Assembly: GCF_015207425.1 (NCBI RefSeq)
Contig: NZ_JADEWZ010000026.1
Location: 1-64,000, forward strand
DNA length: 64,000 nt
Source of the DNA: Lusitaniella coriacea LEGE 07157
GTDB taxonomy: Bacteria > Cyanobacteriota > Cyanobacteriia > Cyanobacteriales > Spirulinaceae
Direction: 5' to 3'
Shown: one piece after another, positions 18,830 through 27,092 of the stretch
Layout of the letters: every line of letters starts with the position of its first letter
Numbering within the stretch: the first letter of the stretch is position 1
The notes under the pieces: model-generated
What the model was told of the DNA's origin: nothing
Database searches by the model: none
The model's input: only the letters and a program-made list of their open reading frames with translations
Position numbers and translations under genes: made by a program

Positions 18830-20935
18830 TCACCACAAACTCGCTTCCTGTTTCTGAATTAGACCCCAAATTTGCCAGCATTGTATTACGCAAGAAGGAT
18901 CCTTCCATATGTTATGGTAATATCCCTCCCCTCTAAACTTGATGTAGTTAGGGGGTATTTCTCTGCTGCGACTCCTTACATAATCTCTTGCGGTTGGGAG
19001 ATGTCCCTCTTCTGTGGAGAGGTCAAAGATATAATCTTCGTAATACAACCAGTTTTTATTCACTCTCCATCCCACACGATCTCCGAACTTGTCCCAGGCT
19101 TCTTCATAGTATTGACCATCCAGTATTCCACCACAAAACTGATAAATCCGTTTCTGGACACTGAAGCCAAAGCGCCCGTTACTCGCTTGTACCCAGAGTC
19201 GATCGATTGTTTGCAGGTCGGCGCAAGGAAATTTCTCAATGGAATTAGGATTAAGCCAACCTTCATTGGTGCGTCCTGCAATTTCAAGCATCACCCTCGC
19301 TGTTTCTTCATCTGCTTCCTTCCATTTCTTCGCTCTCAGCAACTCTCGCAGCTTGGTGTAGTCCGCACCTTTCTCTGACTTCAGCTCAACAGCATTCAAT
19401 GGATCGCTCTCGTACGCTTCACAAGCCTTAACGTGAGAGAAGATACTCGAAAAAGCCTCACGCGCCCACCCGACTCTATAGGTCCACTGTACTCCTTGAA
19501 CACCATAAACAATCGGTAGATGTCCCTTGGGTGCTGAGAGGTCAAAAGTCAAGTCATTGTAATACAACCAATTATCATTCACTTTCCATCCGACCCGATC
19601 TCCAAAGCACTCCCAATTTTTCTTTTCTTCTTGATAAATGCATTTCTGACAGCTAAAGCCAAAGCGTCCACCACTCGCTTTCGTCCAGAGTTCGTCAATC
19701 GTTTGCAGTTCAGCACACGGAATTTTCTTAATGAACTTAAAATTGAGCAAGCTTTCCTTTGCAAATCCGGAAACCTCAAGCATCAACTTTGTAGTTTCTT
19801 TGTCTGCTTCCCTCCATTTCTTTGCTCTCAACAATTCCCGAAGTTTAGTGTAATCCGCGCCTTTCTCCGACTTCAATTCAACCGTATCTAACGGCTCGAT
19901 TTCTTTCGCTGGGGGAGCTGGTTTTTCAGCCTCGGGTTTTGGAGGAGGAGTAACAGGTGTAGCTTTGCTTCCTGCGCCACTAGGAGAAGGACTTGGAGGT
20001 TGAGGAGATGGTTTTGTAGACTGCTGTCCCAATTTCGTAACAACCCGCTCGTAAGCATTGATAACCCTTGAATTCCCAGGATCGAGCATCCAAACTCTGC
20101 GTAAAAGTTGCTTGGCAAGAATTAAATTTCCTTCCGCTTCCGCCTCAAACGCATCTTCTCTCAATGCCGCAATATCGCTCTCATTTGGTCTGATGTAGTC
20201 GGGAAGCAGAATGTAATGATACTTGGTTGCTGGTTCAACAATCGAATAGGGAATTTGCCGGGGTTTTTTGTACTCCCGATTAATCTCCTTCACTCGCAAC
20301 CGCAAGTGACTGCACAACCGTTCTACCGTCGCGCAATTACTTTCCCCCTGAATCCGCAACGCCTCCAACAACGCATAGGTGAACGCGCCTTGTCCCAATT
20401 CCTCAATCTCGTAGGACTTCTCGCTGGGACTGCACGAGGCAATCGTAATTACGCCCTTTTGCTTTTCCCCACCAATTCCCAAACCTGTTTTTGCGCCTTC
20501 ATTGCGACAGGCATCGAGAAACAACACCACATTATCCGCACCGCAACCGCGCAGGCGTTCAGTAACGTAGTTGAGGGGAATGGCTGTGTTTTCAACCGCT
20601 CTTGGATTGCCATCGCAAGGCATCAAGTAATCGCGTCCCTCGTGACGAACCCCGTGTCCGCTAAAAAAGAACCAGAAGTTATCCCCATCACCCAAACACG
20701 GTACAGAAAAGAAGTCTACAAGAAACGAGTAAAGGTTGGCATAGGTGGGTTGCGTGGATTGATAGGAACCATCGGCTGCAAGAATTTCCGGAGAATTATC
20801 AGAAAAGTAGAAAATTTGGTCAAACTGCGCTTTTTCGAGAAACTCACACATCGCCTCTGCATCTCGCACCGCACAGGAGAGGGATTGCAGGCGTTGATAG
20901 GTATTGATGCCGATAACGAATGCCCAATTTGCCAT
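18830..20935 (-). CDS. Caspase-family protease with two C-terminal GUN4 domains
   Basis: The 701-residue protein starts MANWAFVIGINTYQ, the opening of a C14 caspase-like (orthocaspase) domain spanning about 1-245. The catalytic dyad is His94 in FSGHGVR and Cys143 in LFLDACRNEG. Residues 255-302 look like one TPR-type helix pair. Residues 306-345 form a Pro/Lys-rich linker. GUN4-like domains follow at about 358-505 and 522-665. Each has DYTKLRELLRAKKW, a Cys-containing P-C-A-(E/D)-L-Q-T-I-D segment, GRFGFS and FGDRVGW. GUN4 binds bilins or porphyrins in photosynthetic organisms, but such modules also serve as sensors fused to signalling enzymes. It is directly downstream of the Pepco gene. I expect a pair activated by stress or infection. 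Confidence 0.9.
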   Translation of the reverse strand: MANWAFVIGINTYQRLQSLSCAVRDAEAMCEFLEKAQFDQIFYFSDNSPEILAADGSYQSTQPTYANLYSFLVDFFSVPCLGDGDNFWFFFSGHGVRHEGRDYLMPCDGNPRAVENTAIPLNYVTERLRGCGADNVVLFLDACRNEGAKTGLGIGGEKQKGVITIASCSPSEKSYEIEELGQGAFTYALLEALRIQGESNCATVERLCSHLRLRVKEINREYKKPRQIPYSIVEPATKYHYILLPDYIRPNESDIAALREDAFEAEAEGNLILAKQLLRRVWMLDPGNSRVINAYERVVTKLGQQSTKPSPQPPSPSPSGAGSKATPVTPPPKPEAEKPAPPAKEIEPLDTVELKSEKGADYTKLRELLRAKKWREADKETTKLMLEVSGFAKESLLNFKFIKKIPCAELQTIDELWTKASGGRFGFSCQKCIYQEEKKNWECFGDRVGWKVNDNWLYYNDLTFDLSAPKGHLPIVYGVQGVQWTYRVGWAREAFSSIFSHVKACEAYESDPLNAVELKSEKGADYTKLRELLRAKKWKEADEETARVMLEIAGRTNEGWLNPNSIEKFPCADLQTIDRLWVQASNGRFGFSVQKRIYQFCGGILDGQYYEEAWDKFGDRVGWRVNKNWLYYEDYIFDLSTEEGHLPTARDYVRSRSREIPPNYIKFRGEGYYHNIWKDPSCVIQCWQIWGLIQKQEASLW

Positions 20936-21011
20936 AACTTTTTGCGTTGCAGATTTTCTCGTTTGGGAGCGAGTTTCACAATTCGTCTCGAACCCAAGGC
21001 GGAGGATTGGT

Positions 21012-21386
21012 TTAACTGTTTTCCGCTCGTTTGAATTTCAGTGTAATTGCACCCTTGGCTTCCACGCCGATGCCTGTTCCCATCAGTTTAACGTCTCCAT
21101 CGCCCGTAATCTCGACGGACAATTCTACTTCATCCAAGTGCATTCCCGACCGATTTTCGGCTTCTTGGGCGGCTTGTTTAAAAATCCCGCCCACCAACGC
21201 AAGAAATTCCGACATATTGTCTTCAAGCTTCTCAACACTCACTTGAACGCTGTTGACGGCTTTGATTGCTGTTGCTTTTGGGTTCCAGGGATTGCTGGAA
21301 TTTGAACCTTTGTCACCTGTAACGGTTTGTGCGGGTTCTGCGGTGACAATCCAGATTTTTGGGGAGGTTTCGTTATTTTGTTCCAT
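21012..21386 (-). CDS. Pepco domain-containing protein
   Basis: The 124-residue protein matches what I remember of the Pepco domain. It begins with a beta strand KIWIVTAEPAQTV and a Gly/Ser-rich loop. Then come VNSVQVSVEKLEDNMSEFLA and a helix. The C-terminus reads GMHLDEVELSVEITGDGDVK followed by KGAITLKFKR. Aravind and colleagues described Pepco as a small adaptor found beside peptidases (caspase, trypsin-like) in NTP-dependent conflict systems. Here it lies 76 bp upstream of the caspase-GUN4 gene on the same strand, exactly the expected arrangement. It probably links the protease to a sensor. Confidence 0.78.
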   Translation of the reverse strand: MEQNNETSPKIWIVTAEPAQTVTGDKGSNSSNPWNPKATAIKAVNSVQVSVEKLEDNMSEFLALVGGIFKQAAQEAENRSGMHLDEVELSVEITGDGDVKLMGTGIGVEAKGAITLKFKRAENS

Positions 21387-21553: not shown

Positions 21554-22228
21554 CTACGCATTCAAACCCGCTGCAAATTCCCGATGTTCCGATGTCTGCA
21601 ATCCCTCCTGAAGAACGCCCAACACCTCCCCCAAATCTTCCCTCTGCAACGCCGCCACCGACAACCACAACCCCGGAAACGCTTCGCTGCGAATAATTCC
21701 CTGCTCATCCGGTTCTAATGCCACATATCGCCCTTCTCGCAAGCGGAACCAATCGAGGCGATTCTCGTAACTCTGCCATACGAGATACTCCTTGACTCCA
21801 TTGCGTCGGTAAGCGTTGAATTTATCATTGAGGTCGTAGGATGCGCTACTCGCTGCCACTTCTGCAATCAATTCCGGTACGCCGTCGATATAATCATCCT
21901 CGCTAATGCTCGAAGTTCCCCCCACCTCCAAGCGCAGAAGCGCATCGGGTTGCACTTCGTTATCCGCATCCAACCGCACGGTTGCATTATCCTGTAAATC
22001 GACACCGGGAGTTGTCGCCTTATAGACGAAAAGCCAACCAATAATGGCAGCGTGGGGTCTACCATGACGAGTTGTGCGTACAGGGGAAGCCACGTAAACC
22101 ACTCCTTCAATTAATTCTGCTTTTTTCGTTGAGGGCATTGCCCAATAGCGACGCTCGAATTCGTAGCGGGTTAAACGATCTCCGCTTTCGAGAGGGGGAA
22201 GATTGAGAATTGTCGATATTGCCGACAT
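21554..22228 (-). CDS. Uma2 family endonuclease-like protein (DUF820)
   Basis: From the ATG at 22228 the protein is 224 residues with a PD-(D/E)XK nuclease fold. Visible family features are RYEFERRYWAMPS, KAELIEGVVYVAS, the Asp in VQPDALLRL (Asp95), Glu123 in PELIAEVAASS and Lys136/Lys146 in DKFNAYRRNGVKEYLVW. Uma2-type genes are amplified in cyanobacteria, and their biological role is unclear. It follows the same strand as the Pepco/caspase pair but is separated by 167 bp, so membership in that module is doubtful. Confidence 0.87.
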   Translation of the reverse strand: MSAISTILNLPPLESGDRLTRYEFERRYWAMPSTKKAELIEGVVYVASPVRTTRHGRPHAAIIGWLFVYKATTPGVDLQDNATVRLDADNEVQPDALLRLEVGGTSSISEDDYIDGVPELIAEVAASSASYDLNDKFNAYRRNGVKEYLVWQSYENRLDWFRLREGRYVALEPDEQGIIRSEAFPGLWLSVAALQREDLGEVLGVLQEGLQTSEHREFAAGLNA

Positions 22229-22535
22229 GGTAAAGAGTTGAGGCTTTTTTTGATTGTACGCGATCGCGTGTGGGGATACCTCTATCGCTACAGCCAAGAG
22301 TATTAGGACATCGGTGAAGGTGAGCAGGGGAAGCGGGGGGAGAGATGCTGTGAGTTCGGACTATCCTAACTGTTATAACTTTACCGCTCGATACCCAACA
22401 CTGGTTTTAATTGAACTGTTTCAGGCTTATTCTTTTTTAGCAATAAATCTTAAAAAAGAGTTACAAATGAGGTAGTATTTGGAAAGAAATTTATCTCTTT
22501 TTAGATAATTGCAAACGGTTTGAGAATTGACTGTT
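22229..22535. other. Divergent intergenic spacer, no gene seen
   Basis: These 307 bp lie between the Uma2 gene and clpS. The stretch has a HIP1-type site near 22259 and no recognisable RNA or coding region. Promoters for both flanking genes should be here. Confidence 0.45.
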
Positions 22536-25691: not shown

Positions 25692-27092
25692 TCAAATCCA
25701 ACTGCGAAACCACATCCGAAGTTTGTAGCTGTCGGGAGTGAGGGGAAGACCGATATAGAGGGGCAACCAGAAGAAGAAGGCTGCGCTAATACATAATAGG
25801 ATTGCCAAACCAATTTGTCGATCGCGCGCCTGGGGACTATTCAACCAAGAATCCACAAACCACGCGATCGCGTATCCAGAAAAAACTGAAGCTGCCATAT
25901 AATGATAAAGGAAGGTGCAGCGCGTGACCTTCAGCCACGGAAGCAAGTTTGCGCAGTAATTCAACAACAGATAAAGACCCAACCAACTCGAAGCAGTAAA
26001 ATTCTCTCTCCACAGTTGTTTTCCCCACAATCGCTGCACGAGTAAGAGGAAAAATAGCAAAATTGCTGCGGTAGAAAACCACCACAGGAAGGGATTTCCC
26101 ATTGCGTGAACGTCGTAAACAATCTTGACTGCTTCTCTGGGTAAAGGAGGAAGGGAAGGAACGGGTTCTTGCAGGTTTCTTGCGGTTTGGTAAAAATAAG
26201 CAACGGGACGAATCATCAACAGCCAACTGTACCAAGGGGAACAGTAGGGATGGACGTTGGTTCCGCTTCCAACGGTTTGGTGGAAGGAGAAAATTCGCTG
26301 TTGCATTTCCCAGAATCCCGGTTTGGGGTTCATTATCAGATGAGGAATCCAACTCACGCCGTAGGTAAGGGCAGGAATGATGCCCAAGTAACCCATAATG
26401 TGGAAAAGATTGAGTTGTGTCAGGTTTTGTAGGGGCGTTGAAGGGGAACGCACAGGAGAATTGTGTCGAGGAACGAACCAAGCAACGCACCACACCAGAT
26501 AGATTCCCAGCAAAAATCCCAACCCATTCCATTTAATCGCAGCCGATGCGCCGAAAAAGAGTCCGGAAAGTATCAAGTTTTTGCGGCGATTTTGTTGTTG
26601 GCGGAGTGCAATCAAGACGTATAACTGCCCTAGCAAGCCAAAGAGGATGAGGTAAATGTTGTTGAGGGCGAAACGGGATTCAACGAGAAATAACCCGTCC
26701 AGGGCGGCGAAAAGGGCAGCAATTGCACCAAAACTACGGCGGTTGGTTAAATGGTACGCGATCGCGCCCACAACAATTGGAATAAACGACCCGGTTAGCG
26801 CATTCAACCATCGGTAACTCAAGGGAGTGCGCAGCGAACCCAACAACCCATTCATCGTGTCCTGTCCGATTGGGAAATGGGAACCCAGCCAAATGCTAAT
26901 TGTAATCAAATACTGACTTAAGGGTGGATGGGCGTTATAAACGGGTTTTCCCAAAAGGTAGCGATTGGCGAAAACGGGGTAGTAAACCTCGTCAAACACT
27001 AAGGTATTGAAACGATCTAGGTGCCAAAAGCGCAAAACCAACGAAAACACAAAAATAATCGCTAAAGCAACCTTAAACCAGGATTTAGTCAT
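25692..27092 (-). CDS. PMT/ArnT-type glycosyltransferase (polyprenyl-phosphate sugar dependent)
   Basis: This 466-residue integral membrane enzyme probably transfers a sugar from a lipid-phosphate carrier. The catalytic Asp-Glu pair is present as FDEVYY (Asp34-Glu35), followed by NAHPPLSQYL typical of the PMT (GT39) family. The chain has ten or more hydrophobic helices and a PMT_C-like end (CTFLYHYMAASVFSGYAIAW). I take the ATG at 27092. An ATG at 27122 is also possible. Its promoter region overlaps that of the divergent thrC. Confidence 0.85.
   Translation of the reverse strand: MTKSWFKVALAIIFVFSLVLRFWHLDRFNTLVFDEVYYPVFANRYLLGKPVYNAHPPLSQYLITISIWLGSHFPIGQDTMNGLLGSLRTPLSYRWLNALTGSFIPIVVGAIAYHLTNRRSFGAIAALFAALDGLFLVESRFALNNIYLILFGLLGQLYVLIALRQQQNRRKNLILSGLFFGASAAIKWNGLGFLLGIYLVWCVAWFVPRHNSPVRSPSTPLQNLTQLNLFHIMGYLGIIPALTYGVSWIPHLIMNPKPGFWEMQQRIFSFHQTVGSGTNVHPYCSPWYSWLLMIRPVAYFYQTARNLQEPVPSLPPLPREAVKIVYDVHAMGNPFLWWFSTAAILLFFLLLVQRLWGKQLWRENFTASSWLGLYLLLNYCANLLPWLKVTRCTFLYHYMAASVFSGYAIAWFVDSWLNSPQARDRQIGLAILLCISAAFFFWLPLYIGLPLTPDSYKLRMWFRSWI

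Follow-up and report, generated by a model that had tools for sequence, protein, structure and literature searches.

The stretch of DNA analysed here, referred to as the window, comprises the first 64,000 nucleotides of contig NZ_JADEWZ010000026.1 of the cyanobacterium Lusitaniella coriacea LEGE 07157 (assembly GCF_015207425.1). On its minus strand lies a pair of genes encoding a small Pepco protein and a C14 caspase that carries two GUN4 domains, the first of which runs into a hypervariable segment and, behind it, a conserved DNA element in degenerate form. A first-pass annotation had singled out the pair as a likely conflict or cell-death module; that GUN4-1 ends in this segment and element had been missed. 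The features of the locus are the following (positions within the window).

21012..21386, minus strand: Pepco gene, first of the pair, 124 residues (Pfam PF24393)
20936..21011, minus strand: intergenic gap of 76 bp between the Pepco and caspase genes
18830..20935, minus strand: gene for a C14 caspase–linker–GUN4-1–GUN4-2 protein of 701 residues (open reading frame and Pfam)
20231..20929, minus strand: caspase domain, residues 3-235 (Pfam and alignment of homologues)
20656-20654, minus strand: codon of His94, invariant in 53 homologues
20509-20507, minus strand: codon of Cys143, invariant in 53 homologues
19514..19876, minus strand: GUN4-1, residues 354-474, with GHLP at its end (GUN4 fold, pLDDT 88)
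19444..19513, minus strand: hypervariable segment, 70 nt, G+T 67%, replacing the LxNxLR bilin motif
19413..19446, minus strand: conserved 3' DNA element in degenerate form, where GUN4-1 ends (element model, E 3.9e-4)
18995..19384, minus strand: GUN4-2, residues 518-647, tandem duplicate of GUN4-1
18833..18994, minus strand: tail behind GUN4-2, residues 648-701, of unrelated sequence and without the 3' element

The coordinates, lengths and catalytic residues given for the pair in the first-pass annotation proved right, and both of the family assignments on which it relied were recovered by profile search. Pepco (PF24393) matches the 124-residue open reading frame (ORF) from end to end (E 2.5e-34, 118.6 bits at a cut-off of 27); Trypco1 (PF19493) reached 17.3 bits, which is under the cut-off, and an hhalign probability of 9%. 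Relatives of Pepco were absent from the viral contigs searched. In the 701-residue ORF, Peptidase_C14 matches residues 3-232 (E 2e-24) and GUN4 (PF05419) matches twice (E 1.1e-90). The p20 fold with its His/Cys dyad identifies the product as a C14 caspase (orthocaspase), and the two GUN4 domains form a clear tandem duplication, recognizable also at the DNA level.

Pepco scored above the cut-off in 134 of 390 cyanobacterial genomes, and its pairing was surveyed at 81 loci, i.e. the window and 80 others. A caspase gene on the same strand was found within 1.5 kb of Pepco in 71 of these loci (63 downstream, 8 upstream) and one on the opposite strand within the same distance in none (0/81). Where the caspase follows downstream, the gap has a median of 3 bp and measures 25 bp or less in 48 of the 63 cases. 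The pairing is far above chance, and the view of a two-gene Pepco-caspase unit without an adjacent STAND NTPase is borne out, this unit being conserved. No variation at His94 or Cys143 was seen in 53 Pepco-linked caspases, and the domains found C-terminal to these include GUN4 (23), FGE/C-lectin (23), nSTAND (2) and WD40 (1). The caspase part is constant and the domain behind it is swapped between lineages. A double GUN4 is rare: of the Pepco-linked caspases read, only L098 is a clear case in addition to that of the window. The window's genome contains a second Pepco-caspase pair (contig C48, locus L119:7534-10177), with a gap of 325 bp and without GUN4. A description of Pepco pairing with a caspase was not found in the open PubMed Central literature, and earlier reports may exist elsewhere. 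By itself, the pair is a variation on a known theme; its importance rests on what the GUN4 domain led to.

The GUN4 domains had initially been proposed to sense bilins, haem or a phage-altered pigment and so to release the protease. In GUN4 the LxNxLR motif contacts the bilin, the Asn of this motif is needed for bilin binding in CrGUN4, and GUN4 paralogues lack LxNxLR (Rockwell and Lagarias, PMC10156173). We found LxNxLR behind GHLP in 12 of 12 housekeeping GUN4s, including that of the window's genome, in the form L(S/T)NQLRG, and in none of the 66 aligned GUN4s of the class to which GUN4-1 belongs (GUN4-1 itself and 65 relatives). The residues behind GHLP in the window are IVYGVQG in GUN4-1 and TARDYVR in GUN4-2, neither of which contains the motif; the positions of Asn211 and Arg214 (Synechocystis numbering) are taken by Tyr and Gln in GUN4-1, and the equivalents of Arg214 and Phe196 are substituted. 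Judged by these residues, the GUN4 domains here are not of the bilin-binding kind, and the proposed sensing of bilin, haem or pigment is not supported; for bilin, sensing through the canonical motif is rejected. Binding of porphyrin is possible, because an Asn219Gly variant of CrGUN4 retained it (PMC10156173). The common inference that a GUN4 fusion implies pigment sensing is corrected by these data.

The predicted structure (AlphaFold) of GUN4-1 has the GUN4 fold (pLDDT 88), with a TM-score of 0.81 to Synechocystis GUN4 in complex with phycocyanobilin (7e2t), and a Foldseek search with it matched 14 GUN4 chains; the hypervariable segment is the low-confidence part of the domain, with pLDDT partly below 50. 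In 51 proteins with GUN4 tails of this kind the other domains were mostly kinase (15), caspase (10), NACHT (9) and TIR (7), along with KAP, CHAT and EAD1. Together these partners make up the effectors of conflict systems proposed in bacteria, for which such a spectrum has been described (PMC7159879, PMC8195603). Fusions of GUN4 to caspases have been known since 2010 (PMC2853523) and are also named in PMC7159879, and GUN4 was present in 29 of 473 orthocaspases (PMC8283722). The combination had been called little described, which does not hold for the fusion as such and does hold for the Pepco pairing and the hypervariable tail, of which no report was found. The GUN4 part is also hit by PD-T4-6 (E 1e-91), the PADLOC profile of an anti-T4 defence protein, and this model may therefore tag plain GUN4 proteins as defence.

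In the protein alignment of this GUN4 class, conservation amounts to 4.3 bits at Pro474 and then mostly to 0.5-1.2 bits at sites 475-494, to return behind these ~20 variable residues at a Leu-x-Ser-Arg-x3-Cys end. The corresponding DNA segments were collected without requiring an open frame and comprise 144 entries, 10 of which are genomes present in two collections. Their length ranges from 25 to 200 nt with a median of 62, a few lengths being approximate as the limits were set by the profile boundary, and the lengths are spread over the three classes modulo 3 (52/52/40). The segments have a G+T content of 70%, the GUN4 part one of 52%. The reading frame contains 10 stop codons, whereas the two other frames have 116 and 162 and shuffled sequences ~145 (p 2e-36). 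Because the collection demanded no open frame, this depletion is not an artefact of selection on our side, and its restriction to the reading frame implies that the segment is translated and its product selected.

The segments diverge far beyond their surroundings. For 41 pairs of loci with matching flanks (at least 75% identity over 200 nt upstream and at least 85% over 100 nt downstream), no two segments were more than 70% identical, and identity was overall at the random level (random mean 0.45). Two loci from one genus (L079 and L130) share 84% of the last 200 nt of GUN4 before the segment and 98% of the element, with unrelated sequence between, and two paralogues within a single genome (L189) are 87% identical upstream, 99% downstream and 56% in between. 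Shuffling of cassettes between genes was rejected as a source: an all-versus-all BLAST of the segments matched only genomes present in both collections and one pair of Okeania species. Some segments (L274, L279, L211, L058, L115, L189) hold short tandem repeats that copy the segment itself, the GGACACCTCC flank or the beginning of the element, which looks as though ends were copied when the segment was remade. Several GUN4 genes lie within 6-9 kb of each other in L186 (G021), L189 (G049) and L334 (Arthrospira sp. PCC 9108); in L186 and L189 the tails differ between the element-bearing copies, and one copy in L186 is frame-broken. Neither a GUN4 with a hypervariable tail nor one associated with the transposase discussed below was found reported in the open PubMed Central literature, and a description elsewhere is possible.

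The segment is followed by the conserved sequence TCTCTTCTCTCGCGCAGAGACTTGTAAACTGTAG and ~90 nt more, so that the element measures ~120 nt in all. Its start is read in all three frames, as LFSRAETCKL, SSLAQRLVKC or SLLSRRDL, with phases distributed as 26/25/16 among 67 loci, and its conservation extends into the coding part in each of them; the element is thus indifferent to frame. It contains a near-invariant TGTA(G/A) and T-rich stretches. A structured RNA was considered and dropped, as RNAalifold gave no pair and Rfam chance matches only. With regard to a cognate REP palindrome, the element offers the TGTA(G/A), but a consensus hairpin was not found. When searched as a 23-mer with up to three mismatches, the motif was present in 57 of 242 cyanobacterial genomes, and a reversed control gave a single match. 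A degenerate 22-mer was found on at least 116 contigs in 257 Gb of GTDB DNA covering all species; among the matches listed, 80 of 80 were cyanobacterial and 79 of 83 had GUN4 directly upstream, the remainder being mostly contig edges. With the element model, all 28 matches in 12 genomes that could be read with their flanks sit behind GUN4 genes and 2 more lie at contig ends, the weaker matches of this search having been left unread. In the searches made, the element is specific to the 3' side of GUN4 genes and to cyanobacteria. Within the 64-kb window the model gives a single match (19446-19413, minus strand), at the end of GUN4-1, and none behind GUN4-2.

Clustering of the neighbouring genes yielded one recurrent extra gene, which encodes a Y1_Tnp protein of the RAYT/TnpA_REP kind (E 1e-17) that has kept the HxH (SNHxHYL) and YIHANP motifs. 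The gene is convergent with GUN4 and ends ~110-200 nt past the motif. A search by RAYT alone returned an adjacent convergent GUN4 gene in 25 of the 30 best loci, and four of the other five reach a contig end; among 52 Pepco loci without GUN4 there was one RAYT match, a weak one. The element motif occurs in 24 of 42 genomes with RAYT versus 33 of 200 without (p 2e-7). At individual loci RAYT is often broken or missing, and the element is still conserved where RAYT is gone. In the window's genome (G000), an intact RAYT gene and the element are found on contig C57 (L225), whose position 1 falls inside the motif, and contig C60 (L135) breaks off at 26329, within the variable segment of a different GUN4 gene. 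These two contigs presumably adjoin; a break at this point fits mixed alleles in the sequenced culture, and a run of G could be an alternative cause. Two further contigs (C148 of G207 and C537 of G061) likewise end or start near the motif. GUN4 segment, element and an intact RAYT occur together in Microseira wollei NIES-4236 (L303), where Pepco and caspase are found as well, in Planktothrix paucivesiculata PCC 9631 (L345) and in Nostoc linckia FACHB-104 (L330). In three small genomes (G121, G184 and G286), RAYT genes of a second clade (44-51% identity) occur in 8-11 copies.

The sequence pattern is solid, and we consider it probable that it is best explained by a protease conflict module of Pepco and caspase with a formerly diversifiable GUN4 sensor. 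The C14 caspase, predicted to be catalytically intact, would be the effector and the C-terminal domain a swappable sensor. The variable tail lies on the face that holds the ligand in canonical GUN4 and may recognise a target that changes; the most likely candidates are an infection product and a host state altered through infection, which would make phage defence a candidate function. Binding of the target would free the caspase, and Pepco would either couple or restrain it. That FGE/C-lectin, the classical target of diversity-generating retroelements, takes the same position in a similar share of Pepco-linked caspases supports GUN4 as an alternative hypervariable receptor. The copy in the window is probably frozen, because its element has decayed and has been inside the gene since the duplication of GUN4.

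A further and more tentative proposal, which we rate somewhat below even, is that RAYT, acting at the element behind GUN4, is a diversifier of the sensors of conflict proteins (caspase, TIR, NACHT, kinase) that works independently of reverse transcriptase (RT). RAYT and the element would remake the tail from time to time: RAYT would nick at the element, and the free end would be extended with little or no template and then rejoined. A new tail would accordingly be largely untemplated, G/T-rich and of random length, with the first bases of the element ending the protein whatever its reading frame. The G/T bias would keep the frames open, because adenine is scarce and no stop codon is free of it. 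In the window, the Pepco-caspase would then be a client with a decayed element.

Several observations weigh against these readings. A RAYT match is missing in 33 of the 57 genomes with the motif, and the window has the decayed element only and no RAYT. The G+T content of the segment does not differ with the presence of RAYT (p 0.20), and the idea that segments near an intact RAYT are younger and more G/T-rich was dropped for want of a significant difference. The element has no consensus fold, unlike the hairpins of known RAYT substrates. In three related Okeania genomes (L283, L314, L341) the segments are still related and their divergence is that of ordinary sequence, which suggests that replacement is episodic, occasional at most, and not continuous. 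As for Pepco, its predicted structure is poor (pLDDT 59) and its model is absent from PADLOC. Finally, the setting of the pair (MoeA, cupin, Uma2) is no recognisable defence island: the neighbours in the window are a convergent MoeA gene, a Uma2 ORF, a cupin and a cyclase-like protein, and PDDEXK_2 and JAB were also matched. The original assignment to a conflict or cell-death module is supported by the domain context (fusions to TIR, NACHT, kinase and KAP, and swapped C-termini) and not by the genomic surroundings. Between the Uma2 ORF (21554-22297, minus strand) and the co-directional Pepco gene downstream of it are 167 bp; near some GUN4 loci, ORFs of the Uma2 type seem to recur, although not constantly.

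The lack of a surrounding defence island would also suit a protease of stress or differentiation signalling that is unrelated to conflict and in which GUN4 is a plain protein-interaction scaffold; orthocaspases have been tied to ageing, differentiation and homeostasis (PMC7517822). We consider this unlikely, as the partners TIR, NACHT, KAP, CHAT, EAD1, nSTAND and FGE are those of proposed conflict systems (PMC7159879, PMC8195603) and a fixed endogenous partner hardly explains a hypervariable binding face. A second possibility is that the element is a selfish RAYT element that settled at the 3' end of GUN4, where it provides an ending in any frame, and that the variability is a by-product of its insertion and excision. 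The site is always identical, RAYT is frequently broken or absent, and Y1 transposases are enzymes of mobile elements (PMC6006769), all of which would fit. Insertion should, however, spare the GUN4 sequence to the left, yet the segment differs between near-identical neighbours; moreover, the purging of stops from the reading frame shows the product to be under selection, and the element is conserved even without RAYT. On balance this account, too, is not a likely one.

That the caspase is a tetrapyrrole-sensing death protease, gated by the binding of bilin, haem or porphyrin to both GUN4 domains, appears improbable. GUN4 fusions have been proposed as tetrapyrrole sensors (Kaur et al. 2020, PMC7159879), the fold that holds phycocyanobilin is kept (TM-score 0.81), and CrGUN4 without the motif Asn still binds porphyrin (PMC10156173). 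Against this, LxNxLR is missing in both domains of the window and in 66 of 66 GUN4s of the class, with Asn211 and Arg214 replaced, variability is highest on the face in contact with the ligand, and FGE/C-lectin is equally common in the position of GUN4. A neutral tail that decays before a conserved end of transcription would account for the varying length and composition and for the T-rich stretches in the element; it is made very improbable by a ~14-fold deficit of stops that is confined to the reading frame and by the conservation of the element into the coding part in all three frames. A diversity-generating retroelement (DGR), in which RT copies a template repeat with adenine mutagenesis, is rejected as hardly credible even though cyanobacterial DGRs diversify FGE/C-lectin domains of signalling proteins, some with caspase or GUN4-like domains (PMC7517822), since the segment has no fixed length (25-200 nt, all classes modulo 3), the element is confined, in complete genomes, to positions behind GUN4 genes and thus has no counterpart in a template copy, and one genome with the segment and an intact RAYT (G228) gave no RVT_1 match.

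If RAYT does remake the tails, the process would be a bacterial analogue of junctional diversity and a means, not recorded before, by which bacteria vary candidate immune sensors. Targeted diversification of proteins in bacteria is known mostly from DGRs, invertible segments, cassette recombination and slippage at simple repeats. A coding segment of random length together with a frame-indifferent element, tied to one gene family and one HUH clade, fits none of the known types in the tests made. The proposal would also link the role of a RAYT without REP family to that of GUN4 on caspases, TIRs and NACHT proteins, and both questions would then be testable in culturable strains.

Among known systems, the GUN4 orthocaspases tabulated before (PMC2853523, PMC8283722) have the identical fusion; in the accessible parts of these sources the Pepco partner and the hypervariable tail were not found reported. 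The canonical GUN4 proteins (Synechocystis sll0558, CrGUN4, AtGUN4) share the fold (TM-score 0.81) and the core motif up to GHLP, whereas here a hypervariable tail replaces LxNxLR and the domain is fused to a protease. In its layout the pair follows the two-gene systems of EACC1 and caspase (Kaur et al. 2020, PMC7159879), Pepco occupying the position of EACC1: a small constant first gene precedes a caspase with many C-terminal domains, and an NTPase is not needed. In contrast to the membrane-spanning EACC1 with its single transmembrane helix, the 124 residues of Pepco (PF24393) contain no long hydrophobic stretch, as judged by reading, and the C-termini are mainly GUN4 and FGE/C-lectin. The ternary arrangement of VMAP/iSTAND was not found either, MoxR and vWA having no match among the scanned neighbours in the window. 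With the cyanobacterial DGRs (PMC7517822, PMC10907252) the locus shares a hypervariable C-terminal binding face on modular kinase, caspase and TIR proteins of proposed conflict systems, but the segments described here are random in length, G/T-rich, without a template copy and linked to RAYT, and RT is absent in one genome that has both segment and RAYT. Finally, the RAYT/TnpA_REP enzymes of the Y1 HUH type (PMC6006769) resemble the present transposase in the Y1_Tnp domain, the HxH and Tyr motifs and the short conserved DNA at a gene border; what sets the latter apart is its fixed partnership with GUN4 and an element of ~120 nt that is partly coding and has no conserved hairpin.

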